From Dysidea avara (Eukaryota > Porifera > Demospongiae > Dictyoceratida > Dysideidae), in the NCBI RefSeq assembly GCF_963678975.1, contig NC_089281.1, positions 11,247,277 to 11,311,276 of the forward strand: a stretch of DNA of 64,000 nucleotides. Direction: 5' to 3'. The position numbers and the translations under genes are program-made. The notes under the pieces were generated by a model. That model was not told the origin of the DNA. It made no database searches and saw only the letters and a program-made list of their open reading frames with translations. This document shows positions 20,342 through 56,273 of the stretch, in pieces; the stretch's first letter is position 1, and each line of letters starts with the position of its first letter.

Positions 20342-20347
20342 TTTATT
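20342..20347 (-). terminator. Candidate polyadenylation signal of gene A
   Basis: AATAAA on the minus strand overlaps the TAA stop codon of the last exon. It is a cleavage/polyadenylation signal only if the 3' UTR is very short. Confidence 0.4.
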
Positions 20348-20609
20348 AAATAAATTTGTCAAAGATCACCACTGAGGCCAACAAAAATACCAGTAAAATA
20401 TTTGGTAATTGTAGACCAGCTGAAGAACAGTCATTATTCAGTCGTTGAATATCTTCACGAGAAAAGTTATTGTATGGGGTCCATTCACGGTAGAAGGAAC
20501 AAGGTCCTCCAATACCAGCAACATAGGTTGTGCCAACACTCAGAATATTTCTTGGGTATCCACAAGTACTAAGTAAGTCAGGGCCAACCTCTGTAAGGAT
20601 CTGACCCAC
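20346..20609 (-). CDS. Gene A exon 5: second half of the NTR module and hydrophobic tail
   Basis: It opens in phase 0 with VGQILTEVGPDLLSTCG, then GTTYVAGIGGPCSFYREW and a C-terminal hydrophobic stretch with no cytoplasmic tail, as expected for a GPI-anchor signal. It is very close to exon 5 of gene B. Confidence 0.8.
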   Translation of the reverse strand: MGQILTEVGPDLLSTCGYPRNILSVGTTYVAGIGGPCSFYREWTPYNNFSREDIQRLNNDCSSAGLQLPNILLVFLLASVVIFDKFI

Positions 20610-23600
20610 CTAGAGGGACAACAAGCACTTAGTTCAAACATACATAGTGCAAGCATTGGGTAGCAATGTTCTTATCATAAAATCAATCACTTTATCAAGA
20701 CACATGGTAGTTTGTAATGCGGCCAAGAAAGCCATTTTGATGTGAGCATATTGACAGGAAGAAAGAAAATGTGATTTTCATGCATATGTAGCATGATGTG
20801 TTCCCTTCTTCAAATGAAATGATTTTTATGCTACTAATTAGTGCTGCCACGATATAGAAAAACTCTATATCATCTATCACCAAGGTTTATATCACGATAT
20901 GAACATATATCACGATATAGAACTAACTATAACATTTGCAAGACAAACATATTCATTGTAAGTTTAAATGTATACCACAAGCAAAAGTTACTCTTGTTTA
21001 TCAGGTTTTAAATGCATTTTGCTACTGCTTTACAGTTGAGACAAGTGGCTGGCACTACATAGAAACCTTAAAACCTCCCAGTTTACTTTGGGGTTGGCTT
21101 GTTTACCACACTACACCATCAACACATAACTTAATTAAATGCCAAATACTATATGTCTGGCCTCCCCCACATCATTACATTAAGCGGTGCCACTATTGTG
21201 CAACCATCGATATAACTGATTGGTATACCGTACGCAAGGAAATTTTGACGTCAAAAAAATTTGACGAATTTGACGAATCGGTTTAATTCGTCAAATTTAA
21301 ATTCGTCAAATGTTTATAAGCGCCCTTAAAAGTACAGGTTTTGCCTAAAATGTCTTCATTTTCGTCAAAAACCAGCCTCAGTTTTCCCTGATGATGATGA
21401 GGCAGTATTGGTTAGGTAAAACCATGCCCAAGCAAGTCTTCAGATCGACCCGAAACGCTTTCAAAAAGTTGCTACGGAATTTGAAAAACAACAACTATTA
21501 AACGGAGTTTTCTACTGACTGAGTAACTGACTGATGCCTTCAGACAAACGCATAACTTGATAATGGCTAAGGTTACGGGCTTGATTTTATCACTGCTCGA
21601 CATCGCTTTGGCCCGAGAGGTGCCTTTTAGCATACCGCAGTACGTACAATGCTTTCTTCATGGACTTACCAGTGTCCTCCTTTGTGTCCCATTCATCTTT
21701 GCTGACAGTGAAAAGTGTCGATTTGGCAGTAGCACATGATGGCTTCCCTTTGTAACAGAAATCGTTTGTATTTTTCATAGTGGTTACTTTGATTGCAGAG
21801 GTGTTTTTTGAACAGTTCTTGATTCGTACTGCTGTGTAACGGGTTGAACATAGCTGACAATGAAGCGTAATGGATACTTCACTTTACAAATGATAATTGA
21901 TATAACTGCATGGGACGTGCTCATTTATTTATTTTGATACGGTATGCATGGATTGCAGGGGATGCTTTTCAAACTGCTGTGTAACAGGTCTGTGCTGTGT
22001 ACCAGGTCTAACATAGCTGACAACGAAGCATAATGGATACTTGACTTTTCAGACAATAATTGATAGCTGGAGCCCGCAGTGCCATTTCTTTCGCAATATG
22101 TGTGGGTTCACCAGTCATAACAATTATTTACAAAAAAATTAACAAACAAGTACATAAAAAATTTGGAATTTTCAACTAGAGTAGGGACCAAAGCACATTG
22201 ATAAAAAGTACTGAAACAAGCTGGAGTAGTGCATGATATTAAATCACAGTAAAACAATAAGAAGTGTTATATCCCTACTGTGCATTTCCATTATGGTATC
22301 TTGAGCACAGTAACATGGACTGACTAAGTAACTTAACGTAGTACAGTGTATAGATTATTATTAGTTAAGTAGGCTATGTTTAGAATGTATGATGTAATGT
22401 CATGCACGTGCTTATAAGAAATAAGATAGCGTCGTAGTGTTGTTCCTTGCTGGCTTGATTGTACAGTCTGTATCCATCGAAGACGAAGTGATCCTACCAT
22501 GGTTAAGTCTGACAACCGGCTATTACTATCACTGCTACCCTACACACAGTAGGGATATAACACTTCTTATAGTTTTACTGTGATTTAACTTGTTTCAGTA
22601 CTTTTTATCGATGTGCTATGGTCCCTACTCTAGTTGAAAATTCCAAAATTTTTTCTGTACTTGTAAAGTTTGCAATCAGTCTATCTGCATTTTGATAAAA
22701 GAAATTGGATAAAACAAGCCTTATGGCTGGCTATGGGTTTTTAAGTTGTGAAATCAAAGGTGGCAGCCAAGACAGCATTAGCATTACCATTGTTGCAACC
22801 ATTTTTTGGCTCCCACCTTTTTTTCACCTAGGCTTTTGAAATTGGCTGTTTTTGCATTAATAGTAAAATGTACACTTATAATTATTATATAAAAATCCGT
22901 CTTTGATCAAATATCCACAATAATGGCTATAATTTGTTTACACTTTTGGTACCATATAGCAGGTTATTTTCAAAACAGAAAATTTCACAGAAGAGACAAA
23001 AATCTGAATTTCGAAGCTTTTAAATTTTGAAGAACGTATATTTTGAAGTTTGGTGGATTTCAAATAAACAGAAATTCATGTCACAAATCACGAAAGATGC
23101 ATGCATGCATGCTTGCCAACAACTGACTTACTGATAGAATTATCTCCATCCCTATGTACTGGAGAGAAGACTGGGGGGAATCTCTAGTAGAGCAAATTCT
23201 ACTGGCTCAATTATGCCTATGCTAGAATCGCAGCAGATGGCCCAACAATGGCAGATCTGGATCAGCTGTTTACTGGCTATTGACACAGTAATGATACTGT
23301 TTTAACTATTACAATCACTAACACAGAGTTAAAAACAAGAGAGATTATGTGTTCATGCCCAAAATATTTGATCATGTGAAGGTAACTTTGTGAGAATTTA
23401 TGAAGGCAAAAAAAAATTATTTTTGAAGAGAAGAGCCTTTTTGATGAAATATCTGAAATAAATAAAAACCCTTTGAAAATTACCAGCTATACGGTAAGTT
23501 ATTCAAACAATCTCCCTCTTTGGCTTTTTAAATAGGCTATAAGAATATTTTCTGTACAGATTTCTGAGTTTTCTGCTTATAAGAACTACTCTATTAGTAT

Positions 23601-26600
23601 ATTTCATTTTTTCTGGTGATTATTTTGGTCTGGAAGCACCTGCCATCCTTATACTCCAAGGCCACATATAAATTTATACTACTTTGAAAACACCTAAGGA
23701 ATATTTGGAAAACAAATGGATATCAGCTGGTTTTGGCTTATACACATTCAGTAGTACCACTTCACTACCTGATGTGTCCCTTTGAAAACCTGCATAACTT
23801 CCACAGCATATTGGCAAACATTATAATCATCTAGTCCTTCATTATGAGGACACACAAATCGTGGTGTGCAGTACGATTCATCTTGGACTCTTCTGTCCAC
23901 TGTAGTGGGCATTTCTCTACCACACTGGCTGGGATCAACACACTTCCTCTTCTCCACATCAATTACAGTTCCTGATGGACACTCACAACCTTGCCAACAA
24001 TCAGTAGTACATATTATTGTATCATTGAAGTTATCACAAGTCCGAGGACAAGATGATCCACAATTTGTGTATTCTTGACCATCAATAGGACAAGCTGAAC
24101 GAAACACATATGAATTTAAAATACAAGTGAATATAGTTCAGTTGCAGCATTAATTATACTGATCAAAACATACAGTGATGTGTTGTACTGCCAAAAAGTT
24201 GAAAAATGTGATTTTCAATGCATATGTAGCTCTGTGTCCTGCATTCTCATGTGTGCATAGCTCCATGGTCCCTTCTCCAAAGCACACCATGTTTGTATTA
24301 TAGCTGTCCGCTTGGTAGGCAATAGATTTACAGCTACAAGGTTATAAAGTAAAAACCAAACAAGTATAAAATCACGTGATCAAGATACTCTAATAGAGCA
24401 GTCACTGCAGAGTAAGAAAGGTGCATAAAAATCTCTAAGAAAAAACTTCGAACCAGGGACCTCCATACCTAACACCCACATCCTTAACCACTGAATGTTA
24501 CTATCATTACTTTTAAAAGTTCATAATTTCATAGAACTACCAATGGAAAATCTAGAACATTCTATGTGTGTATTATTAGAAATCCTCAAAAAAATGTGTG
24601 CTCTATTAGAGCATTACAAAAGTAATCAAGTAGTACAATATTACAACTTCAATTCTCTAGTCTTACATTAAATCAAGCCGATATTATAGCCATTTTGGTA
24701 CAGATTGGTGGGATAGAAAGACCTACTCACGCCAATCATCATCATCATAATCATCACAATAAGTGCTATGCTAATAAAACTTGTGACTACAGGCTGAAAA
24801 TTGTATATTCTAGCATAAAAGGTGCAGGATATGCTTTGTAAAAATTGAGCAACTGCATTTTATCATGTTTTGTATGAAAAGTGAGATACTCTAATGGAAC
24901 AGTCACTGAAAAATCTTAATAGACAAATAGTATACAAAACAATATTGCAAATAAATACAGGCACTGCATATATATATATATCCATGAACAAGCAAACTCA
25001 AAATTATAACAGTATAAATTGGCTTTGGTATCTGATTGGTAAGTATTTTCTGTATTGGTAGAGACTGTACAGCAGCTACGGAGATTCTACAATCAAAATG
25101 CACAGTAGGAATATTCACTTCTTGTTGTTTTACAATATCTGGACATTACGTGCTACTCTGATCCAGCTTGTTTCAGTACTTTTTATTGCTTTATTGCAGC
25201 GGTACTACATTGTCCCTACTCTAACTCTAGTTTAAAATTCCTAATTTTTTTCTTATACTTGTTTGTGAACTTTCTTTGTCAATGCATGACCACTATTAAA
25301 TAGCCGGCTACCCTCACATATGTAATAAAATTTTAGTTTTAATCATATTCATGAGTGAGGTCATGATCTGCAGCAATAATAATCCAATTATACACAAGGG
25401 CTGTTCATTTACGTACATTCCAGCTACTACTGATATATACACACCAAGCACCAAGATCTGGCGTACCCGCCAGACTAATTCACTTACACCCTTTTTCATA
25501 TGGCCACGGGTTCAACCTGGGTCGAATAACCCACATTCAACCCCCAGTTTCTGTTCACAAGCAATCATCACATGATGTCATATAACGGCAACTCACTTTT
25601 GAAGCCATAAACTGAGTTCAACCCTGAGTTCAACCCTACTGCTTTGTAGGATCAAGGTTCACTGAGTTCAACCCTACTGCTTTGTAGGGTTGAACTCGGT
25701 TATTGGGTTGAGGTTATGACTCAAGCCAGGTTCAACCTGGTTAAGGTGATCATATGAACCCGGGTTGAATGTGCTGGTTTAAAGTGACCATATGAAAGGT
25801 TAAATGTGCTGGTTTAAAGTGACCATATGAAAGAGGTATTAGAACAGTAGTCTACTTTCACACATATGCTTTGTGCATACAGCACTCCATTCCTGGTGGC
25901 AGGCGACATCTTGTCTACAACAGAGAACAGCTCACTTTCTTTGTGCATACCATCCTACAAGCAGTCCATCTCCTGGTAGCAGGTGACTTCTCGTCTACAA
26001 TGGAGAACAGCTTACTGAACTACCCGCTTGAACCGAGACATGTGTAGTTCCAATATGTCGGTGCAATGACATTGTGAAATGTGCATGCGCAGAGATCAAA
26101 GCTATACTGTGCTACGGCCACTATAGCTACATGGAAGGATAAAAGTAAGACAATAGCACACATATTGTTGTACGGCTATCAATATGCCAAAAGTTTCTTC
26201 TTAAGTGAATTTGAAGTGTTTCTGAGAAAGAAGTAGGGCTGTAGATACAACCACTTTTCCGCTATGCTTGACTGAACGCATCAGGAAGTCAGTAGAAAAT
26301 TCTGTTGAATAATGTAAAAAAAAAATTTTTTTTAGTAGTAACTTAACGAATGAGTTGATCTGAAGACATTTTTGGAATAGATTTTACCCAACCAATACTG
26401 TCATGGGAAAATCAAGGCAGGTTTTTGGGTGATATTTTGTCATGGGCCACGCCCACATCTTTGTCGTCCCTACTATACAGTACTATCTTATTGTATGATT
26501 AACATCATTGGCTGTCACCTTTAATTTCACAATTTTTCACCAAGGCTGCATCATTTTTTCACAGCTTGGCTGTTTTTGTGTGGATATCTATATGCCATAA

Positions 26601-29600
26601 CAAAAAAAATTAAACAAACTAGTGCATTAAAATTTAGGTATCCAAGCAACAAAAACTTCAGAAGCAAGATATATGAATGATAGTATTACAACATAGCCCT
26701 GTTTGGCATTGTACAAAAAATGACATGTTAATGTGCAGGGATTCCCTCAGGAATATGTTGATATTTTGTTTCACTAGTTTTTATCGATGCCCAACACACT
26801 ATCAATAATATAGAAGCATGCAATTAACTTTTTTAAAGATGCCACTACTATATGATACAGGAAACAAAACAACCTTCACACATGACATCATGTTTCTGTT
26901 ATTTTAGCATGAATCTATTTCACATTCCACTACCAACACATCAGCATATTCCTTATATGGAGGTTACTCACCAGTACACTGCTCCTGTTGAACACATCTC
27001 CCCACAATGTTATCTACAACCTCATCAACTCCTTCACATTCACATGTATCTACTGCACATACTTCAATTACACAACTAGTGTTAGCAGGTGAGAAGCAGT
27101 CCTGAGGACATATACTGGCACATGATTTCACTATCTGACCAGCAACCGAACAAGCTGGGAATGAACACACAATCAGTGAACAGTTTTAGTTATGCAAGTG
27201 TCTAAAACATTATATGTGACCCAGTCTGAGAAAACCAGTCTTATCGCCCATGTCAGCAGATTCGATTTTTCACCCAGGACACAAAGCTACATGAATAAAC
27301 TATCTAATTCCACAATCAAAATCAGCTAGACTTGAGTGGTCTGGTTTTTCTGGCTGCTTTTCCCAAGCCCAGTGGCGATCCGTATGTGTGGTGTGGGGCC
27401 TTAATGGAGCTCTGGTCAACCTGGGGATGACTGTATGTGTCTGTACAGCTCTGTGGTGTTGAATAAGTACCTCTGCTATAAATTTCCTTTCATTTTAGCC
27501 AGTTTTGAGACCTCAATGGCCCAAAGCTTGGCCTATTTCATCCCTTGGCCTTCCTTTTCAATTTCTGAACACCATCTTGCCCGCCTTCCAGGGCCCTCGC
27601 CTCCCACCCAATTTGCAGCTCGCCTGATACAGTCAACCTTGGTTTAAAAACTATCTAAAATGGTGGGAAACTTAGTTGTTGGCTACTTGCACAGTGGATG
27701 CTCTGGAAGGTAAGGAATTGGTGTAAAACATGTGAAAATTTGGTACACATGGCTTCAACCATTGGCAAGCTACAACACACTAAATACTTAAAACCGGCGT
27801 TTCTCAATACTTTTAAATAGGCGATAAGCCCGGTTTTCCCAGACTGGGTCACACATACAGTACTAGTGTACTAAACCACTATTAGAGATATGATTGCATA
27901 TTTATTTGGAAATTTGCACAATTTGAGAATCGTATGATAACTGCTAAATAACTTACTCACTATTATAGAGCTTTGAGTATGTAATAGATGCCATTCCATA
28001 ATCAATATCCTTCTTATAGTACAGAACCATAGATTTTTCAAGATTGTGAATAAAGCTATGCGTGCATATATGTGACCGGATTTCACATAACAAGGCTTCC
28101 GCACACACAAAATCAAACTTACGTTTTTACCAGAAATGGATTGCTGGCCTAATACACTATCACATTCCACACTGTACTTCCTTCAGGACTGGCAAGTCTG
28201 GTTTCTGTGGCAGCTTTCTTCCGACCCTGTCAAAGCCACGAGTGGGAGATTGGCGCCATTGAATGGCCATGGCTTTGTGATAATGGTGTGTAGTGAGCTG
28301 GGACTTCACAGAGAGCTCACCAATAGTGTTCTCGGTCAATTTGGAGTGATTTGAGGGCCATGGAGAGCCCAAACTTGGCCTCTGGATTCCAATCGTCTTC
28401 TTACTCCATTTTATACCCGTATATTAAGACTACCATCCACCCCCACCCTCCCACCCTATTACTATCACCTGTGATATTATTACTCACTCGAGAAAAGCTG
28501 CCCAAAACAGGGCTAATTTTGGGTATCAGAAATGTATACACCCACTCAGTGATAGATAGTAAATAGATGCATACTTGGTGCAAATTTTGTTTGCACAGCT
28601 GTAGGCACTGGGAAGTTATTACACAATGATTACTTAAAATCGCCATATCTCCTAACGAAGTTTTGTGCGTCGAAGCCGGGTTTTGTCAAATTCAGTCACA
28701 TATACTAGTCACATAAATTAAAACTGCAACAGCCAGGAGAATGAAACCCAGGACTTCCAAATGACAGAATCCTATTGGATGGTTTATTGACACAGCTCTG
28801 AAACATATCAAAACATGCTATTGGGATTTGTAAAGTCAGAATGGCAAAATCAAATTTACAGCCAGTAATCATTTTATCAGCAATATTATACATTACCAGT
28901 GTCCTTTGTTGTTTTCCACCCTTAGGTCATGAAATGGACTGATTAAACTCTGATTCTTTGAAAGGTCTGATCAGGATAGTTTTGATTTCTCCAATACAAA
29001 CTCCATACATTTTATATCATTTTGTACTTTCAATAAAATTGCTCACACTAGATATGATATCATTCAACTACTTATGAATTGCTTCTGTCCGAACAAAATT
29101 CGTAATCGCCATGGTGATGGTGTGATGCCGCTATTTAATTACAATGCAAACTTTGTGATTTGTTCTCCAATGGATTTTGTATTGCATAAGTTGCTACTTA
29201 CTACCATTTATCATAGATTTGCAAGCTGAAGTATTGATTAAATTTTGTTATCACCAGATAGAGGAAGCTTATGCGTGTATAACAGCGGCCGAACAAAATT
29301 GATACTGTCTTCAGAACAAGAGTTATGATAAATAATGAAACTTTAAACTAACTTACCTCCATAGGATGCTGTACATTTATTTTACGCATAATAATATTTT
29401 ACGGAAAATTGAAGTGTATGGGTTAAGACATGAGTTTTGATATGACTTGATGTAATCTGAGTACAAATGCTTTATATAGCCATGTTGTTGACATACTTTT
29501 ATTAGGACATTGTGATGGCATGACACATCTCCTCTGATCTTCATCAATCGCCATATCCTGTAGACAACCACATCCCCTTACACACACCACTGGACATGGA

Positions 29601-30104
29601 GAAGTTTGACCAAAATTGGAACAAGTAGTGTGGCACAATGGAGCACAATCCATGAACACCTGTCCCTCATATGGACACTCTGCAATCGAAACACTGTGAT
29701 AGTATAACTTCAAAGTGTTTATTGCCTCACCATTTGGCTCGAAAAAACTTCTGATGGTGTCACACGATAATACACCATAGACATTATCCACTAGCTATAT
29801 CACATGTTGCTTGAGTCAAAAGTGTATTTGTAAGCTGTCCAGACCCAGTGAGACTTGCGGATACACAGGATATGTTTGCAATATTTTGAAAGTCGTCGAG
29901 TGTGTTGTTCGCAGTTGGAATGCAATTGCACGTAGCGTTGAGTACTCGTGCGACAAACACATCCTCAGAAAACCCGTAGTCGCTACACACAGGCCGTGAA
30001 TACTGACTCCGTGGGCAAGAACATCCCAGTATTATCAAGGGGTAACAGGTGAACCAAAACAATGCTTTGAACGCGAGTTTTAACGATCGATCACGCACAG
30101 CCAT
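20346..30104 (-). CDS. Gene A: secreted TIMP/NTR - TIL x3 - NTR protein, probably GPI-anchored; frameshifted in exon 1
   Basis: Five exons on the minus strand: 30104-29731, 29679-29497, 27154-26972, 24094-23769, 20609-20346. Order: signal peptide ending LIILG; mature start CSCPRSQYSRPVC with DVFVARV (TIMP-like N-terminus); three ten-cysteine TIL domains, one per phase-1 boundary; then an NTR module (YCTPRFVC, YAVEVMQVFKG, STCG, CSFYREW) and a hydrophobic tail LPNILLVFLLASVVIF after an SSAG candidate anchor site. TIL domains usually inhibit serine proteases and TIMP-type NTR domains metalloproteases; activity here is inference. Compared with gene B, exon 1 has a net +4 bases near 29792, giving a stop five codons after the shared CD motif. 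Corrected length would be 441 residues. A weak donor at CTA|GTGGAT would splice round the break in frame, so it may be a pseudogene or a shortened form. Confidence 0.75.
21355..22130. repeat. Dispersed repeat in gene A intron 4
   Basis: It starts near TTTTCGTCAAAAACCAGCC and runs through AGATCGACCCGAAACGC and GTGCCTTTTAGCATACCGCA. The second half matches 2303-2865. A reverse-oriented, diverged copy of the first half lies near 26270-26480. The frames inside are not conserved. Confidence 0.6.
22143..22664. repeat. Foldback MITE, about 520 bp, in gene A intron 4
   Basis: The left arm (CAAACAAGTACATAAAAAA, CTAGAGTAGGGACC) and right arm (GGTCCCTACTCTAG, TTTTTTCTGTACTTG) are long inverted copies. 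A second inner inverted pair, AGAAGTGTTATATCCCTACT, surrounds the centre. It is the same family as 2870 and the lone arm at 25166-25270. Confidence 0.75.
23769..24094 (-). CDS. Gene A exon 4: TIL domain 3 plus first half of the NTR module
   Basis: The TIL part (CPIDGQEYTNCGSSCPRTC, then DCWQGCECPSG and CVDPSQC) is joined without an intron to YCTPRFVCPHNEG and CQYAVEVMQVFKG, the first strands of an NTR module. The exon ends in phase 0 at CATCAG|GTAG. Confidence 0.8.
24420..24510 (-). repeat. tRNA-derived SINE-like segment
   Basis: Minus strand: CAGTGGTTAAGGATGTGGG (A-box-like), then GGTCCCTGGTTCGAAGTTTTTT (B box followed by T-run; shown only in part). A related but decayed copy lies near 62300-62370. 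It sits in gene A intron 3. Confidence 0.45.
25140..26800. repeat. Repeat-filled part of gene A intron 3
   Basis: It contains a lone foldback arm (25166-25270), an inverted pair around GGTTCAACCTGG and CATATG words (about 25495-25800, with a 33-bp direct duplication at its right end), a 70-bp tandem duplication (25865-26010, GTGCATACAGCA and GTGCATACCATC units) and a decayed foldback near 26596-26790. No exon was seen. Confidence 0.5.
26972..27154 (-). CDS. Gene A exon 3: TIL domain 2
   Basis: Phase 1-1 exon reading CSVAGQIVKSCASICPQDC, then VCAVDTCEC and CVQQEQC. All ten TIL cysteines are present. The CVxGC loop is replaced by CAVDTC, so the reactive-site loop differs from domain 1. Confidence 0.8.
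27215..27853. mobile_element. TIR element, TGTGACCCAGTCTG ends
   Basis: TGTGACCCAGTCTGAGAAAA at the left faces TTTTCCCAGACTGGGTCACA at the right. The flanks suggest a TA-type target. It lies in gene A intron 2 and has no coding content of its own that I can recognise. Confidence 0.65.
28071..28700. mobile_element. TIR element, TGTGACCGGATTT ends
   Basis: TGTGACCGGATTT at the left is matched by AAATTCAGTCACA at the right, with TATA on both flanks. It is similar in size to the neighbouring TGTGACC element but its interior differs. Open frames inside overlap on both strands and look non-coding. Confidence 0.55.
29497..29679 (-). CDS. Gene A exon 2: TIL domain 1
   Basis: Phase 1-1 exon of 61 codons starting CPYEGQVFMDC. 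It has ten cysteines with the CxxxC, VCVRGCGC and final C....C spacing of trypsin-inhibitor-like domains. Only 51 bases of intron separate it from exon 1. Confidence 0.8.
29731..30104 (-). CDS. Gene A exon 1: signal peptide and TIMP-like CSC segment
   Basis: The ATG at 30104 opens a hydrophobic leader that should be cut just before CSC. The exon ends at AATG|GTGAGG (phase 1), the same donor as gene B. The net +4 insertion lies around 29792-29795 (TAGC duplicated beside CTAG), after which the ancestral frame VYGVLSCDTIRSFFEPN is readable only in another frame. Confidence 0.7.
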
Positions 30105-30137
30105 TTAGACCGAGATTTCAACCAATTAGCGAGTGTG

Positions 30138-30194
30138 TTAGTCTAATGGCGCCCGTCCTTTCGCCAAAAGGAAGGACGGGCGCCACCAGACTAA
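30138..30194. promoter_or_regulatory. GC-rich hairpin 34 bp upstream of gene A start codon
   Basis: The arms 30138-30160 and 30172-30194 are 23-bp inverted copies with two mismatches, core GGCGCCCGTCCTT, around an 11-base loop. It falls where the promoter or 5' UTR must lie. The ends TTAGTCT/AGACTAA recall the TAGTCT termini of the MULE-like MITE at 597-1134, so it may be a minimal mobile element instead. Confidence 0.6.
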
Positions 30195-30339
30195 ATAATC
30201 GATGTGGCTAATACTGAAGCAGCAAGAACACTTCCTTCCATGCCCAGTCTACATATCGATATGGTTAGGCACTCTCGTAAGGTTGTCAGCTCACGTGACA
30301 TTGTGTATTAAGTCGGCACAAAATCACAAATCACGTTTA

Positions 30340-30657
30340 GGCCACTCCTAGAAAATTCATTATTCAGTCCGGCCCGCATGCAGATTCTTTTCCCGCATGG
30401 TCATTCATTATTGCTGTCAATATTCATTATTTATCCTGTGACTGCATAGGCAGCATAGCGGTAGCATTCAGAAAGCCCTTATATAGCTAGATTTTCACTG
30501 TTAAACTTAAAGCTCTTAGTTTAAATATTTCTATTCTTATACCTGTAAGTTAGTTATGAATTTCGAAAATATCTATAATGGATAATGAACCGCCCGCCCG
30601 CATGTATATATATTTAAAGTCAATGAAATGGGAAACAAGGAATATTTTGGAGTGGCC
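30340..30657. mobile_element. PIF/Harbinger-like MITE, TSD TTA
   Basis: GGCCACTCC and GGAGTGGCC ends, with TTA duplicated at 30337-30339 and 30658-30660. CGCCCGCATG-type words occur inside, as in the copy that interrupts the TIMP exon. A lone right end lies at about 31120-31129. Confidence 0.75.
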
Positions 30658-30722
30658 TTACATTAATCCTGCAACTGAAAATATGAAGGCACAAGCTGAA
30701 ATGCTTTTAGGCTATGGTAACT

Positions 30723-31008
30723 CAGGGGCAGTGAAAGGGGGCTCTTGACCCCCACCCTCCAAAAATTTTTAGTATACCAAGATCGAGATATCATACTCTA
30801 ATAGAGCAGTCACTCTAATAAAGCAGTCACAGTATTAGAACAGTGTGTAGTGGGTTATTTGCTATAAATGCGTAGTTGGTTAGGTAGGCAGCTATACTGT
30901 CAGCTGGCTGTGACCTTTTTTTTTGGTCTCACCTTACCAAACCAGAGACAATGCAGTGCATGAGTTGATTTTGACCCCCCCCTTTCCATAAGTCTGGATC
31001 CGCCCCTG
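30723..31008. mobile_element. hAT-like MITE, CAGGGGC ends
   Basis: It starts CAGGGGCAGTG and ends GGATCCGCCCCTG, with CTCTAATAGAG motifs and a T-run inside. A clean target duplication could not be confirmed, so one boundary may be a few bases off. Confidence 0.55.
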
Positions 31009-31243
31009 CTATGGTTGTATCCAGGTAAATAATGGCTTGAATAGCTGCCAATCTTATAATGGAAATGGACTGCTCACCCGTCGGCTGAGCGGAGGATGGG
31101 ACACAGAGAATTTATTTGGAGTGGCCTTATTGTATCTGCAGAAAGTTTTAGTTTTGATATGCCAGTGAACTTTACCATGCCAATTCTTTTTTTTTAGGAT
31201 GGCACAGCATGCATGTACTTGCAAATGATATGGGCACACACTA

Positions 31244-35105: not shown

Positions 35106-35375
35106 CTATACACAAATGAACTTGTCAAAAATCACCACTGAGGCCAACACAGAAACCAATACAAGACTTGGTAATTGTAGACCAGCTGAAGAACAGTCAT
35201 TATTCAGTCGTTGAATATCTTCACGAGAAAAGCTACTGTATGGGGTCCATTCACGGTAGAAGGAACAAGGTCCTCCAATACCAACTACATATGTTGTGCC
35301 AACACTCAGAATATCTCTTGAGTAGCCACAAGATGATTGTAAATCAGGACCAACTTCCATAACAATCTGACCCAC
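35106..35375 (-). CDS. Gene B exon 5: second half of NTR and hydrophobic tail
   Basis: It starts VGQIVMEVGPDLQSSCG after a TGTAG acceptor, and runs to CSFYREW, an SSAG candidate anchor site and a hydrophobic tail ending FICV. It is two residues longer at the C-terminus than gene A. Confidence 0.85.
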   Translation of the reverse strand: MGQIVMEVGPDLQSSCGYSRDILSVGTTYVVGIGGPCSFYREWTPYSSFSREDIQRLNNDCSSAGLQLPSLVLVSVLASVVIFDKFICV

Positions 35376-38300
35376 CTACAACAATAATAATCATGTGTAT
35401 TATGCCCTTATACTGTGTGCTTTTCATCACCAATTGCTCAGTACCAAATAACGGGTAATTTGGGTATCACACACAATGTTCAAAGCATGGCTCTTTTATA
35501 TGCTAGTTTAACATTACAATTAGCTAGTAGCCTTGCAAGGAAGCTTTTTTCTATGGTCTGCAGTGTACATGGATTCCCTACTAACAAAAATACCATTGAC
35601 AACCCACTTGCAAGACAAAGTATTTTATGCAAGTCATGTGCTCTTTTGTGTTGCTATAGCTACACAATTAGTGCTGTTTTATAACTGATGAAATAGCAAT
35701 ACCCAGGTTACCCTGGCAACAGTGAAAACCTTGGGGCCAAAACTGCTTGAATATCTTCTCCATCTTTAATCTGATTATCCAATTTGGTTCCAAGAAACAC
35801 CATGAAAGTATATAGCAAGTTATGCCACGGTCAGTGTCATGTGATGCATATAAGTAATAGATGGTCGTTCAAAGTTGTTATTGTATGTATCGAATGACGG
35901 TCTGTTATTCATCACTCTGTAACAATTGAGTGGCTATTATTTTTGGTCCTGTAGATGCCCAGCTTACTGTACCACATATATACAGCCTCTTTTTCTCATA
36001 CTTAATTACCTCATGTGTCCCTTTGAAAACCTGCACAACTTCCACAGCATATTGGCAAACATTATAATCATCTAGTCCTTCATTATGAGGACACACAAAT
36101 CGTGGTGTGCAGTACAATTCATTTTGGATTCTTCTTTCTACCAATGTGGGCATTTCTCTACCACACTGGCTGGGCTCCACACACTTCCTCTTCTCCACAT
36201 CAATTACAGTTCCTGATGGACACTCACAACCTTGCCAACAATCAGTAGTACATGATATTGTATCATTGAAATTGTCACAAGTCTGAGGACAAGATGATCC
36301 ACAATCTGTGTATACCTGACCATCAATAGGACATGCTGAATGGGAAAATCAGAATTTTCGACATAAAGGTAATTCAGCAGTACTTCCATTATGTAATAGT
36401 TGTAACATGGGCATGAGGACTTTGCCTGAAACGTTTGCCTGACTGCACAGACCAGAGGGCATACATTTCAGGCAAAAGCCTGAATGCTCCATGTTACAGC
36501 TAATATGAAACTTATCCCATCTGTATTAGGCTGATAGCCTGCACAGGGCAATTAATCACCCAAGCTGATATGAGTGCAAACCACTGGATATATTATATAT
36601 ACATGCCTAAAAATTTTGATTATGGGTCAGCAGTTAGTATGTTCTGGTTACATTCAGTTACGATGAATGGATAAATCCTACAGGTATCACGGAGAATTTC
36701 GGTTATGCGAGTTTAATGTTTTAATCAGTTATATTGAGTCATTTATGGAATAAATATGGAGTTTACTAAAGACCTAGATAGATAAGCTTGCTCGTAGAGT
36801 GGTTGCTTCATGCAGAGTGGTAACTTCGTGATGGGGTGTGGTCCATATTCAGAAACGTGTAGAAACGATTGGTGAATGGACCTTATCTGCAATGACATCA
36901 TAATTGACAAAATGGCCGTGTTTAGTGTGGGCACTTCGTATGTAATTACTAAAATGAGCTTTGTTTGCAGATTTCAAAACATGGAACTATTGGATAGTAA
37001 GGGTAAAAGACTAGTTAGCGTGATGTGGTGATGCGAAACAATCCCACCAGACGAAACCAGATTGTTATTGATGCAAAACTACTCACATTTGTCTTGTAAT
37101 GAAGTATGTATGCCTCACCTTGCCCCTTGCTGCAGTATGTAAATGTTAACATAGTGAACCACCATCTTTCCCAATACCCTCTGTACAAAAGTTCCCACAC
37201 TATCGGCCACCATTTTGTGCTTTGACGTCATTGCGGATAAGATCCATAAGCTATAGCACTAGTTATCAAATGGTACGGTTGTATGGCAAGCGATCAGTAA
37301 CAAAATTATATCCGACGTTCAAACTTCGATGTTATGTCGAGATTGTGTTTCGACGTGACGTCGAAATTGGACGCGACATCCACAAAACATTTTCAGCCCA
37401 ACATCAAAATACTCCTATTAGTGCCCTACACATATAATAGTGTACGCATGCATGAGTGTAAAGACGTTGGCAGAGCACGTTGTTTGCAAAATGTCTGTAG
37501 AAAAGACGGTTTTAGGCATCTTTAGGGAAAGAAGAAGGCCCATTACCTTCAATAGTGGAAGTACTCCTAAGGAAGAGTACGGTAATCTACTAGAGGCAGT
37601 GAAGTCTGGTTTTGACGATGTGAAGACAAATATTCCAACTGGTCTTTACTAATGTCAAACCAAGACCTTCCAGGTTCACAGTTAATAGTGTTAACCCCAA
37701 CTCTGTGTGCTACTGGATAAGTACCACTTACAACAGCTCCACTGTTTAAATAGTCCTCGCATAGTGATCATTGGCGATTTTTTTTTGTGACAAACAGCAA
37801 CAAAAAAAGACAATGTACAAAAATAACCGATAACTAATTAAGTGAGTGAGTGAGTCCTCGGACACACACTACCACAGAGAAGGAAATAGAATGCCCACGA
37901 GTGGGTGTGGCAAGGAAAAAAACTTGTTACAGCAACACACACAAAAATGTAATTACAATAAATAATAGAGTTGACAACATTCAAGCATCTTCAGACCATT
38001 CAGGGCAATCTCTTGCCATGAAAATTCTCGATGAAAAAATAGAAATGGTAGTAGCCAAGTCAAAAATCCTTCTGCAGGTGGACTTAGAAATCTTGATCTC
38101 ATTTTTAATAAAGTTAACACAGTTCATAAATGATGACAAAGATGCCGGCAAGTAGTGGCCTAAAACACTTATTTCAATGGTATCATAAAAACAAGGAATT
38201 CCTTGACGATCAAATTCTGACTGTAACTCTTGGTACTCTCTTCCCTTGTTTTCGATCCCTGGCAGATTTGAGGTGTTCAACTGAATCTAAGAGACATGTC

Positions 38301-41374: not shown

Positions 41375-41432
<58 letters not shown>

Positions 41433-44153: not shown

Positions 44154-44208
<55 letters not shown>

Positions 44209-50200: not shown

Positions 50201-53200
50201 TTATCAATTATCACTGTATACTAGTGATGTGAATTTGCAGGTCAGTCTACTCAGATGTATCGGGTATAGTGTTGATGGGTTCAAACAAATACCCAGTGTA
50301 GACTGTAGTGGCATCAAGGGTGTTAATTTCTAGGTCAGTTTACATGTTGTGATGTTAGTGATTTTTTCCTAGTACCCAGATGTTAAGTGTATTGTATTTA
50401 ATGCCTACCTGTTATGTTTTTAAATTATGGTATATCAGTGTAGACAGTACAACAGTAAGCCTTCTGTGTTGTAGTAACTATTTGTTTCATAATTATGCTG
50501 TTGTCCTGGAATGGCACAATTTTTGGGCAACCAGTGTGAAGTCCAGTGGTACAAACATTGTATTATGACCAAGTTGTGATAGTGTACTTTTGTTTGACTA
50601 ATGTCCTAATGTTCAGGTTTGACATGCTTACCCAACAGTTATGTTATTCATTCACTTAGCCTGGGATATAATTTTTGTTCATTTTGATTATCCATGCTAT
50701 TATTGATACAGCCCGGCATATTGATTTTTTGTACATTCTCTTTTAATTCAGTACTTGCTGGATTGTGTCATCAGATATCGAAACAAGTGTTGGTGTTGCG
50801 ACCAATGTTCCAGGTCAGTTGCATGAGTGTTTAATTTAAGGTTAACTTCAGTGCCTACTTATTCTTTTACAGGTCTTAGTATCGTCATGCTGACATACAA
50901 GAAATCATCACTATTGTTGGAACTATTTTTAGTCAAGTCTTGATGTGATGTTAATTAACGTTGTTACACATTGTTGTATGTTTACCATATGGCAAGAAAT
51001 TTTCATGGCCATCATGAAATTTGAATATTGTGTAAGTTGTGTGGAACAACCCCAACTCATACATGGTCACTGGCAAACCACAAACCACATTCGAGCCACA
51101 ACACCACCAACCACATTCGAGCAATCCATTACAAAATTTTGTTGCACCATTTGTGTGTGCATAATACTTAATGAAAGCCACAACACAAGCTACATGGTAA
51201 ACACTACATAGAGGTGGTAACCCCTAAAGGCTTGTTACCTAGCTTTTATATTCACCTTATCGGCCTTTGTGGTTAATCTATTAAAAATTACATGTAAATA
51301 GAGAATTGAAGAGTATGCTTAAAGCACCTTCGCTAGTGATTTTGTTCTTCACACCATAAGACAACTGGCGATTTATAAACGCTCGCATTGGGGTGTGGCA
51401 CTAAATGGAATTTAAAAGATTTCTGCTTAAAATGCCATCCCTAGGGAACTTACGGTTCAGCACGTTGTCACAACTTGTTTATCAGGCATTAGAGTTTGTG
51501 TCCACGTTGTGCCTTTAAAAGTTATTGTAGGGATTAGAGGTTTGATTGAAGAAAATACGCGTATAGGCAAACCAGGATTGGATAATGTCAGTGCTAGATG
51601 GACTATACAAACACGACTATGTTGACTGGTATAACGTGACAGTAGTTGTAACATAAGGTAGAGAAATAAAGTGAAATACGCCTATTTTTTATTTTGCGAT
51701 GGTTACTTTTTTATTTTAGCGAGGTCGCAAGAAAACTATGATGATGATGATGACGACTCCTAAAGATTTTTTTATCACGTAACGCAATACAAATCTATTG
51801 AGAGATGTTGCATAATCTAGGACTAATATTGCGAAACCGGCCCTACACGTAAATAACTCACAGTAGTGGCCGCGCGTCTTTTAATTGGGCGTGCGCTTTG
51901 TAGTTTCTTGGCCGCGCGACTCACTACCGTGAGTCTTGATATGTAACTAGTTACTTTAAAAAAGTAACTTGCCCAACACTGACTCTAATTAGAGCAGTCA
52001 GATACTCTAGTAGAGCATGCAGTCATGTACTAAAATTTAGCCAAAATTGTTACAAAATTTAATCTCAAAAGGCAATTTAAAAAAAGTTTCCTATAGGGCA
52101 TGCTCCCAGACTCCCTAACAAGCACATGCTCCACATTCTGAGTGAGCTTTCCACATCGTACAAATTATATCAACCAGTAACCACCCTGCTTAGCCCCCTC
52201 ACTTTAAATTTTGTTGCTATACCCCTGTTCTTTGCACTAGCATTAACTCAAACACACAAACATGAAATATGAATATGGTTTGTGCCTTAAGCGCTCGTGC
52301 AGTAATCCAATCTAAGAGTTTACTTTGATATGATTCTGTAATTTAACACTTCCTGGTATATACATTCCATTACAGTTTGTTAAATCTTCTAACTTACCAG
52401 TACACTGTTCCTGCTGTACACACTTTCCAGCAATACTGTCCACAACTTCATCAACTCCCTCACACTCACATGTGTCTGGCACACAAACTTGGGAACAGCC
52501 AATGTCAGTAGGTGTGAAACAACCTTGAGGACATGAACTGGCACATGATTTCATTATCTGGCCATCAATTGGACAAGCTAGAAATAAACAACAAGTAAAT
52601 AGTCATAATGTACACTTTTACAGTTTAACACACATTTTTCATTTCATAAAATGAACAACTTTCACACTCTGTTTAAGGCAATTAACAAAACGAATGTGTT
52701 CTCACAAATAGATAATAATTACACTAAATATTAAAGGAAACAGAACTCTTTTCTTGAGACCAAAGATTCAGATTTACAATACACCTTTTGCTTTTTGCCA
52801 CTACTCTGAATAATTAGTTATTCAAGGTCTGGTCAAGGTTTAAAAGCTGTTACAAAAACAGTACCAGGGTGACAGTTTCAGGGGATTTGGGAAGTACAAT
52901 ATTATGTGTATTTTTTTCACTAAAGTCATACAACAAGTTTTTCTTCAGTGCTAAACTGATTTTGGTCTCACAAAACTAGCTAGCTATTAGTGAGAGTACT
53001 TTAGCATTCTGTGAATTAATATTGATGATGGGTGTACATAAACAATGTTTTTATACTACATGTGGTGAATTTTGATGGCTAAAAGTCTCAAACAAAAAAT
53101 AATGCAAGAAACCCCTGATGGTATATAAGTCTCATGCACTACCGCTTTGCTACTGTCACTACTCATATACACAATCCACACAAAAACAGCCAAGCTGTGA

Positions 53201-56200
53201 AAAAATGGTGTGGCCTTAAAAAGCCTGGGTGAAAAATTTCGTGAAATCAAAGGTGGTGGCCAAGAAACTAATAAATTTTAACAATGCAAACAGCCATTAT
53301 TAAAATTTTTAGCATTAACATCATTGCAGCCATTTCTTGGCCGCCACCTTTGATTTCACAACTTTTTTCACCCAGGATTTTTAAGGCCGCACCATTTTTT
53401 CACAGCTTGGCTGTTTTTGTGTGGATTTCACTTCTTTTTGTACTTTATAAGGCCCCAAAACCAGCCTATGGCTAACTTTGAGGTTTTTTACTCACATTTC
53501 TTCTTTCCTATGCAGACAGACACAATGATGATTATTGAAGACAGGCTTATAAATGTATTGCATTGTATATATATAAATATTGATTTTTATGTCACAAGAT
53601 GCTAAATTTCGTGCTCCTCACAAAGAACCAGATGAAACTTGCTACTTAGCCAAATCATACCCAGAGTTGTTGTAGTTAAAAGGTATACATAATAAGCAAA
53701 AATAAATTGCTGGGTGCTTGGCACAGGGTTGCTTTCTTCAAAAAAAAAAAAAAAAAAACACAAAGAAATACGAATTTTCGACTTCAAGCTGTCATACTAC
53801 CCAGGGCAAGAAAAGCTAACTCTTCTTCATAGCATTTCAATACGGTTGGATGCATATATAGTCTGTCTATGCTGCTAATCTGGAAAAGATCTGAGACTTC
53901 TCCCCATCTAGGTGACGAGTGTCAAAATTTTCTGCAGCATTAAACAATTATATCACTATTTCTAGCCATTTTTGGTGCTTCTGCAGTCACAACAGTAATC
54001 AATTATTGACTAGAACTATGGCAAAAGATGTCCCTGGACGTTTGGTACCAGCAGTTGTCAATTATTAGTTGATCCACAGCTTCTATACCTCTGTACCATG
54101 GAAGGCAGCTAAATCTTCCTAATTTGACTTCAGCTCTCATGCTCCACAGCAGCTTCAAATCTTTACTGGATCACCCTACATCACCATTATGTTGCAAAAT
54201 GTCCCACAACAAACAGAAAAAGCACAAAATCTTTCATTTTGCATTCAAGCTGTGGTGAGCTGCTGGTATACTGCATCATATGAAATCGCAGAAACACCAA
54301 CTGCTACTACTACCAAACGTTCATTTTAAATCAGATGTACTGGAAAGGACTTTGGCACCATTGGAATCCTGTGGAATGACGCACGAAAATTTTGACGCTC
54401 TTCACCCAGATGGTGACAAGTCTCAGATCCAGCATATAGATAGGCTATGTATCACATCACTATGAAGAGTTGGTTTGTTTGTTTTTTTTGACAGGTAGGG
54501 CAGCTTGAATTCGAAAATTCATTTTTATATTCTGATTTTTTTAAAAGAAAACAACCCTATGACAGGAACCCAGTGAATCATTTGCTTATTACTGTGCGTA
54601 CTTTTTACTACAATAACTCTGGATAATATCTAGCTAAGTAGTAAGTTTTATCTGGTCCTTTGTGTGGAGCACGAAATTTAAAAAATAAATTTTGCATCTT
54701 GCGAGATACTTTCTGTGAAGACAACAGTTGTGCTTACGGTTTCATGGTAGATCTAGCAATGGGATACTACCATGAACATCCCACAATAATAGGGGGATTG
54801 ATTTGTAAAAGTTGATTTTTCGGATTGTGGACCTTACCCATGGCCTCATGGTCAGCAAGGTTAGACCAACGTGATAATTTACGACACTGTAAAGTACTCC
54901 CATTAATGGATAGTAAAATTTAATGTTAAAAACTTTTATCAGATAGCAGTAGCTATGGCTCTATTCCTAATAGGGGACCATCAAGCTTGGGTATACTTCT
55001 GAGACCTTTATATGTCATACTAGCAGTGTTGGGAGTAACGCGTTACAAAAGTAACGCGTTATGTAATATTATTACTTTTGTGGTAACTAAGTAATAATGA
55101 AATACGCTATAAAAACAGGTAATATAACTCAAGTTATTTTACTTACAAATGTAACCGGTTACCTAAGTAATATAGTTACTATAACGAATCTAATATTACT
55201 ATAAGTAACAAAGTTACTAATCTCGTTAGTGAACCACCGAGTAATGCCTAGCCACAATGAAGTAATGAAGCCTACTGAATGAAGCTTATTCACCAGCTTC
55301 TTACTTATAACCAAGATTTGTGCATTGTCCAACAATGCAATCATGTCACGTGATAAGGTAGTAGTTTCACACGTGACAGCTTAAGGCTGTGGTCACAAAG
55401 TAATATAATATGTAATATTATTATAGTTACTTTATTATATGGGTAATATGTAACTGTAACTAAATAGTTCAGTTTCAAGTAATACGTAAATATGTAACTA
55501 GTTACTTTAAAAAAAAGTAACTGGCCCAACACTGCATACTAGTCACAGACATATAAAACCAGTGCAAGGAATCCTGACAAATAAGAAAGCAAATGATCAC
55601 AGTATTGTAATTTGAAACCAGTGCTAGCATGCTAGCTAACATACTTTTGTTAGGACACTGCAGTGGCATGACACATCTCCTTTGATCTTCATCAATCACC
55701 ATACCCTGTGGACAGCCACACCCCCTTACACACACCACTGGACATGGAGAATTGTGGCCAAAATTCGAACAAGTCGTGTGACACAATGGAGCACAATCCA
55801 TGAATACCTGTCCCTCATATGGACACTCTGAAATAAACAAGGTGAATTTAGTAGGCTCACAAAGTAGCTACCACCTCACCATTTGGCTGGAAAATACTTC
55901 TGATGGTGTTACAAGACAACACCCCGTACACATCCTCCAACACATCACAAGTTGATTCTGTTAAAACTTGATTCGTAAACTGTCCAGATCCGTAGAGAGT
56001 AGCGGATACGCAGGATATATTCGAAACGTTCTGAAAGTATTCGACGTCGTATGGGGATGGAACACAGTTGCAAGAAGTATTGAATACTCGGGCCACAAAA
56101 ACTTCATCAGAAAACTCGTAATCGCCACAAGCAGGCCGTGAATACTGGCCAGGTGGGCATGAGCATCCCAGTACTATCACGGGGTAGAAGATTAACAACA

Positions 56201-56273
56201 GACACCAACACAACGTCTCACGCCCAGTCATTTCCGTCCTTGTAACAGGGTGTAATGATCTGAATGCTTGCAA
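35106..56273 (-). CDS. Gene B: secreted TIMP/NTR - TIL x3 - NTR protein, probably GPI-anchored
   Basis: Five exons on the minus strand: 56273-55880, 55827-55645, 52577-52398, 36335-36010, 35375-35106, giving 450 residues from the first ATG or 436 from the in-frame MTG at 56231, which I prefer because the relic at 8197 has the same MTG. The leader ends PVIVLG; the mature start is CSCPPGQYSRPACGDYEF with DEVFVARV. Three ten-cysteine TIL domains (CPYEGQVFMDC, CPIDGQIMKSC, CPIDGQVYTDC starts) are followed by the NTR module (YCTPRFVC, YAVEVVQVFKG, SSCG, CSFYREW) and tail LVLVSVLASVVIFDKFI. All frames and splice phases are intact, and intron positions equal those of gene A. Intron 3 is 16 kb and full of nested transposons, against 2.9 kb in gene A. 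The predicted role is an extracellular or cell-surface protease inhibitor; the free Cys-X-Cys N-terminus is the TIMP metal-chelating motif, but inhibition is untested. Confidence 0.8.
36010..36335 (-). CDS. Gene B exon 4: TIL domain 3 and first half of NTR
   Basis: CPIDGQVYTDCGSSCPQTC, DCWQGCECPSG, CVEPSQC, then YCTPRFVCPHNEG and YAVEVVQVFKG, ending CATGAG|GTAATT in phase 0. It is the same length as gene A exon 4 (326 bases). There is no internal methionine near its start, so only splice logic shows its full extent. Confidence 0.85.
37279..38970. mobile_element. DNA element with TIRs of about 110 bp
   Basis: The left end GTATGGCAAGCGATCAGTAA through TTTCGACGTGACGTCGAAAT (about 37279-37375) is inverted at about 38860-38970. 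Minus-strand remains of a mobile-element ORF lie inside. The plus-strand frame at 37440-37652 (MSVEKTVLGIFRERRRP) has no recognised domain. Confidence 0.7.
37981..38416 (-). pseudogene. Mobile-element ORF remnant with RPDIVFYN and LLELTC motifs
   Basis: Minus strand: HRPDIVFYNENSNSVALLEL, then LDSVEHLKSARDRKQGK, a frameshift near 38238, then EYQELQSEFDRQGIPCFYDT and SRIFMARDCPEWSE. The D...ELT spacing resembles a PD-(D/E)XK-type nuclease tail of retroelements; that is inference. A further fragment of the same tail lies at 41440-41510. Confidence 0.6.
40275..40800. repeat. Partial copy of the GTTTAAGTAGGGAT element with a 12-bp tandem run
   Basis: It begins ACCGTTTAAGTAGGGATTGT and is collinear with 38979-39470. 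Four to five units of CACTCACTGCCT at about 40497-40550 are an expansion private to this copy. Confidence 0.65.
41376..41431 (+). repeat. (CA)n microsatellite
   Basis: About 28 CA units. It is followed at 41440-41510 (minus) by SRRIFLARNCAEWS, a fragment of the mobile-element ORF described at 37981-38416. Confidence 0.9.
41599..41740. repeat. Reduced foldback MITE
   Basis: ACTAGTATTTT and AAAATACTAGT ends; the interior keeps GCCAAAGTAGGGACTTTCCC and GGATCCCTACTTCATTTTTA from the 39771 family, but most of the left arm is missing. Confidence 0.6.
42221..42687. repeat. Foldback MITE, AAGAGTTCATAAT ends
   Basis: The arms contain TATACTGAGGAGAGTATCCT and TATACCCCTGTAGAAGGGTA, inverted on the right side. 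The interior is unique. Mini-palindromes with the same AAGAGTT(C/T)ATAAT end occur at about 7415 and 12050. Confidence 0.75.
42837..43086. mobile_element. TIR MITE, CAGGAGCTT ends, 7-bp flanking repeat
   Basis: CAGGAGCTTATGAGCCGCC and its inverted copy with an inner GGCGGCGAAGGAGCATGAAA form arms of about 48 bp. GTATCAA is duplicated at 42830-42836 and 43087-43093. The arms themselves carry a GCCGCC(N)GGCGGC mini-hairpin. Confidence 0.75.
44153..44208 (+). repeat. (TGCC)n microsatellite
   Basis: About 14 tetranucleotide units, ending in TTGCCTACC variants. Confidence 0.9.
44575..44788. repeat. Foldback MITE
   Basis: CTAGTGTATTTAAAA at the left, TTTTTAAATACACT at the right; inner arms GGGAAAATCCCTACTTTGG and CAATGTAGGGATTTTCCCAC. 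Same family as 39771 and 45293. Confidence 0.65.
45292..46462. mobile_element. Insertion 1 in the hAT MITE: foldback plus GTTTAAGTAGGGAT repeat
   Basis: It starts CTAGTATATTAAAAA (foldback 45293-45567) and ends CCGTACCGTTTG, with ATA duplicated on both sides (45289-45291, 46463-46465). It is the reverse-oriented counterpart of 37266-40044 without that copy's nested TIR element. Confidence 0.75.
46794..47575. repeat. Large foldback, about 370-bp arms
   Basis: It runs from ACCCCAAAAACACCTTCGCT to AGCGAAAGGTGTTTTTGGGG in a nearly perfect inverted arrangement. A duplicated GATATCTGAAGCGGCCAAGA phrase occurs in each arm, and the spacer near 47170 is short. Confidence 0.85.
47957..48322. repeat. 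Tandem duplication, about 180-bp unit
   Basis: Both units start GGTCACAACTTCAGGATT and end TCACCTTTTGACTG (47957-48130, 48132-48322). They diverge by substitutions and small indels that break frame, so coding is not supported. Confidence 0.7.
48323..49728. other. Unassigned interior of the 5.1-kb insertion
   Basis: It contains a 27-bp tandem duplication (CTGAAAGGAAATTCATTCCA, near 49119-49172) inside an open plus-strand frame of 110 codons (49086-49418) with a hydrophobic middle. No family was recognised and no splice-supported model was found. Confidence 0.35.
49729..50890. repeat. Duplicated modules with CAGGTCAGT-type words
   Basis: Module X (GTCATGAATTTCAGGTCAGT and onward, 76 bp) occurs at 49729 and 50138. 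Module Y (GTTTGTGATAGCGTACTTTT and onward, about 330 bp) occurs near 49808 and 50562. Words like AGGTCAGTT recur at least six times. The frames are not conserved between copies. Confidence 0.6.
52398..52577 (-). CDS. Gene B exon 3: TIL domain 2
   Basis: Phase 1-1. CPIDGQIMKSCASSCPQGC, then VCVPDTCECEG and CVQQEQC. It is one codon shorter than its gene A counterpart, and all ten cysteines are kept. Confidence 0.85.
53174..53426. repeat. Foldback MITE in gene B intron 2
   Basis: ATCCACACAAAAACAGCCAA at the left against TTGGCTGTTTTTGTGTGGAT at the right; the inner arms carry GGTGGTGGCCAAGAA and its inverse. A partial relative lies at about 22745-22860. Confidence 0.75.
53592..54715. mobile_element. 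TIR element, about 1.1 kb, diverged long arms
   Basis: The left GTCACAAGATGCTAAATTTC and GTGCTCCTCACAAAGAACCA are inverted at 54640-54710 (CCTTTGTGTGGAGCACGAAA). Similarity continues to AAATTGCTGGGTGC and its partner. There is no recognisable coding region, though a short plus-strand frame at 54280-54465 is open. Confidence 0.55.
55024..55534. mobile_element. hAT MITE (CAGTGTTGGG family), TSD CATACTAG
   Basis: CAGTGTTGGGAGTAACG and its inverted partner end the element. CATACTAG is duplicated exactly at 55016-55023 and 55535-55542. It is collinear with 14989-15511 and lies in gene B intron 2. Confidence 0.9.
55645..55827 (-). CDS. Gene B exon 2: TIL domain 1
   Basis: Phase 1-1. CPYEGQVFMDCAPLC through VCVRGCGCPQG to CVMPLQC; it differs from gene A exon 2 at few residues. 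Intron 1 before it is 52 bases. Confidence 0.85.
55880..56273 (-). CDS. Gene B exon 1: leader and TIMP-like CSC segment
   Basis: Open to the donor AATG|GTGAGG. After CSCPPGQYSRPAC and DEVFVARVFNTSC it carries CNCV, NVSNISC and VYGVLSC, so at least seven cysteines sit in the mature part before the first TIL domain. Confidence 0.8.

Follow-up and report, generated by a model that had tools for sequence, protein, structure and literature searches.

Tandem genes of the sponge Dysidea avara in which three TIL domains appear to interrupt a single NTR domain

Two tandem genes of the sponge Dysidea avara, here named A and B, raise the question of how a TIMP-like CSC start, three trypsin inhibitor-like (TIL) domains and a netrin-like (NTR) end are put together in one protein, and what such a protein may do. 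They lie on the minus strand of a stretch of 64,000 nucleotides (contig NC_089281.1, positions 11,247,277 to 11,311,276), which is called the window below and whose own numbering is used. The original prediction read the product as a linear chain, in which a mature CSC start is followed by three TIL domains, a separate C-terminal NTR module and a hydrophobic anchor. Our analysis replaces this chain: the CSC segment and the C-terminal NTR are read as the halves of one interrupted domain, and therefore the domain is nested. As far as the architecture alone is concerned, we hold with high confidence that a three-TIL module sits within the NTR, in the loop that joins its strands A and B.

The gene structure is established. 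Gene B consists of five exons with GT donors, AG acceptors and cumulative phases 1,1,1,0, and its product has 436 amino acids. Exon 1 (55880..56231; all exons of both genes are on the minus strand) encodes the signal peptide (codons 1-22), the mature CSC start, the first NTR strand, which reaches to about 56073, and then a 64-residue segment with cysteines; exons 2 (55645..55827) and 3 (52398..52577) encode TIL 1 and TIL 2 with ten cysteines each; exon 4 (36010..36335) encodes TIL 3, a linker of about 30 residues with two cysteines and the second NTR strand (VEVVQVFKG); and exon 5 (35106..35375) encodes the remaining NTR domain and the hydrophobic C-terminal tail. Gene A has the same five exons with GT/AG borders, namely exon 1 (29731..30104), whose frame is broken 3' of the CSC part near 29,795, exon 2 (29497..29679) with TIL 1, exon 3 (26972..27154) with TIL 2, exon 4 (23769..24094) with TIL 3, the linker and the second NTR strand, and exon 5 (20346..20609) with the remaining NTR and the hydrophobic tail. 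The third intron of gene B measures 16 kb, and gene A has no intron of such length. A blastn comparison of 18001-32500 with 34001-58500 gives 19 rows, four of which span the five exons; since the other 15 are short (26-94 bases) and repeat-like, no sixth exon common to A and B is seen. Compared over 387 codons, A and B have a ratio of nonsynonymous to synonymous divergence (dN/dS) of 0.25. Gene order and exon model are thus confirmed at the level of the sequence, and the domain order shared by A and B, as proposed originally, recurs in three further genes, D, E and G (in G as far as strand B).

On the whole, the genome searched (550.8 Mb in 108 contigs, with 22 stretches examined in detail) holds relatives of two classes, one with an uninterrupted or plain NTR and the other with a TIL-split NTR, and the split class comprises five genes (A, B, D, E and G) on three contigs. 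A profile built from three complete uninterrupted NTRs of the same genome matches the split genes in two collinear pieces, which locates the insert in the loop after the first strand. In D, model positions 1-41 fall at residues 1-41 (i-E 5.2e-11) and 42-125 at residues 310-393 (1.4e-24), the two pieces abutting. In B, positions 14-50 fall at residues 10-48 (4.8e-6) and 45-125 at 306-386 (4e-28) with slight overlap, besides one chance piece with E 2.7; and in E, positions 13-44 fall at residues 10-41 (0.0018) and 40-114 at 297-371 (2.1e-24), again with slight overlap. When residues 1-92 are shuffled 2000 times per gene, the observed score is 30.9 in D against 8.6 for the best shuffle, and 14.9 in B against 10.9. 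The exon-1 piece of E weighs on the other side, because its score of 6.5 falls within the shuffle range (best 9.2), so that E alone is not significant for the exon-1 half.

The plain gene C, on the minus strand like gene A and 12 kb past it, displays the same domain without insert: CSC is followed by YQFARDVFSAKV and YMIEVVHVFKGKRQ only 16 residues apart, and the two stretches correspond to the strands that A and B encode in exons 1 and 4, without any TIL in the gap. A 42-residue stretch of gene C compared across the join of B gives z 12.6, reached by 0 of 1000 shuffles; taken singly, exon 1 gives 3.6 and exon 4 gives 7.7. The joined split profile aligns with the plain profile over 120 columns with a score of 210, and the C-terminal (C) part alone scores 160. 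The insert between strands A and B amounts to about 260-270 residues with the three TILs; in TIMPs this loop corresponds to residues 28-41, one of the three most variable loop areas according to the available part of PMC3679795. The mature proteins of B, D and E are 60-69% identical and conserve 44 of 44 ectodomain cysteines in all three; the TILs account for 30 of them, the NTR pattern for six, and the lead-in together with the lead-out for eight. The only additional cysteines lie in the tails of B and D, one in each. All 15 exon comparisons among these three genes give dN/dS below 1, with synonymous sites of exon 1 near or beyond saturation.

The synonymous divergence between A and B varies among exons, being 0.11 in exon 4 and 0.26 in exon 5, versus 0.90, 0.40 and 1.18 in exons 1, 2 and 3 (Fisher p 5e-8 on rounded counts), and low values are also found in exons 2 and 4 between contigs C10 and C3. 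Of the 60-base flanks of A and B, only those in the short first intron (0.73 on either side) and the one preceding exon 4 (0.68) score above the best shuffle; the rest resemble each other no more than shuffled sequence does. With most flanks at the shuffled level, gene conversion is a possible cause of the low values of exons 4-5, and the exon-wise differences may come from exon-limited conversion or from synonymous constraint.

The family assignment of the insert is established as well. A Pfam scan of full-length B finds three TIL (PF01826) stretches with 76.3 bits against a cut-off of 24.5 (E 2.1e-21), in agreement with the three ten-cysteine TIL domains first proposed, and D and E have three TIL stretches each. 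No other family exceeds the Pfam cut-off in full-length B, Kazal and CC domains included, and exon 1 of B alone has no Pfam match. The Pfam NTR family (PF01759) is absent from the scan listings up to E 10, where the HMMER filters drop most matches above about 0.1. The plain construct matches a coronavirus model below cut-off (E 0.0027); this and the sub-cut-off matches to DUF2790, DUF2871 and Cmr7A are taken as chance. The C part, the part from exon 1 and the joined A/B profile each give 0 matches when searched against PDB sequences, and no relative is found in bacterial and archaeal genomes scanned with exon 4 or in viral contigs scanned with exon 5. For exon 1 alone, a fragment, structure prediction is of low confidence (predicted local distance difference test 41.7, predicted template modelling score 0.23). 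Its 64-residue segment beyond the first NTR strand (55880-56072, minus) carries five cysteines, has no Pfam match within exon 1, and has counterparts in D, E and G and partly, owing to the frame break, in A.

At the two ends of the protein, the signal and the mature CSC start put forward originally are retained, with cleavage predicted in B (the only gene to which the -3,-1 rule was applied) between VIVLG and CSC. The tail is hydrophobic, with a best 15-residue mean hydropathy of 2.62 in A and 2.57 in B, and the residues beyond the hydrophobic stretch are DKFI or DKFICV in A and B and CFKSLII in D, while E ends with the stretch itself. The tail of E looks like a glycosylphosphatidylinositol (GPI) signal, and those of A, B and D may instead be short transmembrane tails. 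The anchor claimed earlier holds as a membrane-type tail, GPI attachment being putative; likewise the NTR-like C-terminal end stands, as part of one interrupted domain and not as a separate module.

We then consider the relatives individually. The last exon is found at 11 places in the genome, A and B among them, and the search with exon 1 gives 6 matches at E 0.1 or better. Besides A and B, the split genes are D (C10, L017 and L009, plus strand, exons read by eye), E (C3, L018 and L010, covered between CSC and the stop codon) and G (C12, L031), which is read as far as strand B and whose last exon is not found in the following 21 kb or so. A candidate F on C8, with strand-B and exon-5 matches about 21 kb apart and no TIL in about 27 kb upstream, is not counted as split. 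Uninterrupted NTRs are present in L012 (C8), L013 (C1) and L014 (C2), in a further candidate on C8 (L023 with L015) whose status as one gene is unproven, and in gene C, whose first exon (7581..8197, minus) encodes the signal, CSC and strands A and B and has at its end a phase-0 donor shared with genes A and B. The next exons of gene C lie past the window start (L009 from 9108 downward, minus) and run into Calx-beta, which is why a search of window positions 1-7600 gave nothing convincing. No TIL match lies between the NTR exons of gene C, L012, L013 and L014. Two gene C exons joined by eye match Calx-beta at E 1.3e-20, and L012, L013 and L014, with one partial exon each, do so at 0.015, 0.0065 and 0.11, all below the cut-off. 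Since the plain relatives continue into Calx-beta, the relatives of this NTR, as far as seen, are not stand-alone TIMPs, and a matrix or adhesion setting is therefore favoured as the rival function. The first exon of gene C also contains a 362-bp element (8069-7708, minus) with 33-bp perfect terminal inverted repeats and TTA on both sides, which introduces an immediate stop. On C10, at about 11237000-11303500, D (split, plus), C (plain, minus) and A and B (split, minus) form a four-gene cluster with both domain states; as the two states adjoin there, the insertion event is datable and testable.

How far the split NTR resembles a TIMP is a separate matter. The start is CSC in all five split genes, i.e. 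serine at position 2, and inhibition is tied to C-X-C with serine or threonine second in the part of PMC3679795 available. The mature cysteines of B at 1, 3, 13, 341, 362 and 386 follow the order of the TIMP N-terminal domain, which is kept in D and E; the six align almost end to end with TIMP-3, and the CG and CxF..W motifs are in register with TIMP-2 and TIMP-3. In TIMPs the disulphide pairs are C1-C70, C3-C99 and C13-C124. The C part of B alone matches the Pfam TIMP profile (PF00965) at positions 40-122 (E 0.014), the start of TIMP missing. By hhalign, joined A/B reach 50.6% against three TIMPs over columns 1-99, and the C part alone 19.6%; under other settings the joined score of 26.4 beats all 200 joins with a shuffled exon-1 piece, the best of which reaches 25.4, and all 200 full shuffles, which reach at most 21.1.

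A number of results speak against a true TIMP. The Pfam match of the C part has 15.6 bits against a cut-off of 23.1, and neither B, D and E at full length nor three plain genes match the Pfam TIMP profile. Joining the exon-1 piece to the C part lifts the score by about 1 bit (from 15.9 to 17.1, the reversed piece giving 16.2), and joining the whole of exon 1 drops it to 13.6. In pairwise alignment, shuffled exon-1 pieces do as well as the real one in 7, 35 and 125 of 1000 cases against TIMP-3, bovine and human TIMP-2, and in 172, 191 and 329 of 1000 when the cysteines are fixed. For four split genes, joining adds nothing (21.4 joined, 21.3 for the C part alone), and more members do not improve the match, whose probability is 28% for all seven, 6.3% for four split genes joined, 9.1% for their C parts alone and 2.1% for the plain set. 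Pro5 is found in B and G only, the third cysteine occupies position 13 in A and B but 17 in D, 14 in E and 18 in G, and position 2 is F or R in two of the five plain genes, a class whose continuation into Calx-beta points to adhesion. Finally, B has no second, C-terminal TIMP domain, the tail following directly. Because the evidence is mixed, with a match below cut-off and no gain from added members, we label the domain NTR/TIMP-like rather than TIMP, a label based on the sub-cut-off match of the C part and on the comparison with the paralogues.

The TILs themselves were inspected at the reactive position, which we take to be the second residue between the fifth and sixth cysteines, after the Ascaris inhibitor. 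Assigned by cysteine spacing only, and with the TIL 2 loop of gene A one residue longer, the residues in B, A, D, E and G are V, V, E, E and E in TIL 1; Q, a four-residue loop, Q, Q and A in TIL 2; and T, T, T, T and A in TIL 3. TIL inhibitors usually have R, K, F, L or M here, and none of these occurs at the presumed position in the five split genes. Judged by sequence, the reactive residues are no usual trypsin or chymotrypsin determinant; V or A would be compatible with elastase-like enzymes.

As to function, our best guess, a tentative one, is that the protein is tethered to the membrane and binds metalloproteases in the manner of a TIMP, with the TILs as an arm. In this proposal, the module inserted in the A-B loop of an N-terminal NTR consists of the three TILs, preceded by the 64-residue lead-in and followed by a lead-out of about 30 residues. 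Signal peptidase would leave Cys1 as the first residue; Cys1, Cys3 and Cys13 of exon 1 (as numbered in B) would pair with three cysteines of exon 5 in TIMP-like manner; and the disulphides would close one NTR barrel around the TIL insert. The tail would tether the protein to the cell surface, probably by GPI, the free amino group of Cys1 and Ser2 would enter the active site of a metalloprotease, and the TIL array would project from the A-B loop as a second contact or a spacer. That the genes form a nested, membrane-tethered family of TIMP-type inhibitors, steered to particular metalloproteases by the TILs in the A-B loop, is a more specific reading which we consider doubtful.

Adhesion or ligand binding is about as likely as a metalloprotease binder. 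Here the split NTR would be a surface protein derived from secreted NTR-Calx-beta matrix proteins, with the TILs as a rigid spacer and no protease inhibited. TILs act as spacers in von Willebrand factor and mucins. The uninterrupted paralogues running into Calx-beta (strong in gene C, below cut-off in L012, L013 and L014), the TIL reactive positions atypical of inhibitors by comparison with that of Ascaris, and the weak TIMP similarity all suit such a role, which however leaves unexplained why Cys1 is at the predicted mature N-terminus with Ser2 in all five split genes, as TIMP needs, and whose ligand is purely hypothetical. The dual protease inhibitor of the original prediction, with the NTR directed against metalloproteases and the TILs against serine proteases, is improbable: three TILs of ten cysteines each are indeed present above the Pfam cut-off, whereas R, K, F, L and M are absent from the presumed reactive position in five genes, which carry V/E, Q/A and T/A there, and the TIMP match is below cut-off. 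The earlier interpretation is, by sequence, partly supported overall.

Very little credence is given to the reading that exon 1 holds a CSC domain in its own right, independent of an NTR that would be complete in exons 4-5. Leaving aside the TIL cysteines and the six of NTR type, exons 1 and 4 do carry five and three more, a number that would allow separate folds; the established collinear split, with the pieces abutting in D, the C part lacking the first 40 or so profile positions of both TIMP and plain NTR, and the existence of uninterrupted paralogues argue against them. Equally remote is the view that the exons are separate transcripts or pseudogene debris, to which the broken frame of gene A exon 1, the 16-kb intron of gene B and an exon joining predicted from DNA would lend themselves, since exon order, phases and GT/AG borders are the same in A, B, D and E (in D and E by eye) and dN/dS is 0.25 for A/B and below 1 in every exon comparison among B, D and E.

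Upstream of gene B, pairs of alike short reading frames are repeated (56806-57111, 59599-59892, 58765-58986 and 60857-61120, minus), and three of the four, when scanned, match no Pfam family at E 0.1. Beyond them, 61249-61431 (plus) resembles the start of a short-chain dehydrogenase-like gene by a weak Pfam match (E 0.0077, below cut-off).

The nested order has no described counterpart in the literature searched for an NTR domain with a TIL domain, or TIMP/netrin-like with trypsin inhibitor-like, and the original statement that no such family is known holds there; no such report is among the matches listed for domain insertion in NTR modules or TIMPs, and the available part of a paper on sponge Calx-beta proteins (PMC11229196) contains nothing bearing on a split NTR. 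Large insertions within small domains held by disulphide bonds seem to be rare. Should the NTR inhibit metalloproteases, these proteins would parallel in nature the TIMPs that have been engineered with a membrane anchor: in the accessible part of PMC9409782, a GPI-tethered TIMP-1 variant inhibited MT1-MMP better, and exchange of the AB loop altered TIMP selectivity. Such inhibition in a sponge would also bear on the published view, as given in part of PMC10755359, that TIMPs arose after the divergence of sponges, which rests on Amphimedon queenslandica, the sole sponge named in a 41-species survey and one without TIMP; a nested TIMP-type family, if real, would then occur in a phylum whose one named representative in that survey, as far as the part consulted tells, had none.

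Compared with known systems, the split genes share with the TIMP N-terminal domain (PF00965) a signal directly followed by C-S-C, six cysteines in TIMP order, and the CG and CxF..W motifs; they differ from it in the long A-B loop insert, in a hydrophobic tail which replaces the second TIMP domain, in a Pfam score below cut-off and in a Cys13 spacing matched only by A and B. The plain NTR-Calx-beta genes (C, L012, L013 and L014) are homologous over the full length of the NTR and have the phase-0 intron before its last part, but they have no insert, and Calx-beta-like sequence takes the place of the tail. RECK is the nearest functional parallel by analogy, being GPI-anchored with several serine-protease-inhibitor-like motifs and inhibiting matrix metalloproteinases; unlike the split genes, it has Kazal and CC domains and no NTR, and is termed structurally unrelated to TIMPs, in the available part of PMC12842694. 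Similarly, WFIKKN/GASP is by analogy the nearest multi-inhibitor NTR protein, secreted and combining several inhibitor domains with an NTR, but as described in part of PMC3427181 its WAP, follistatin/Kazal, Ig, two Kunitz and NTR domains stand in line, with no TIL, nesting or anchor.

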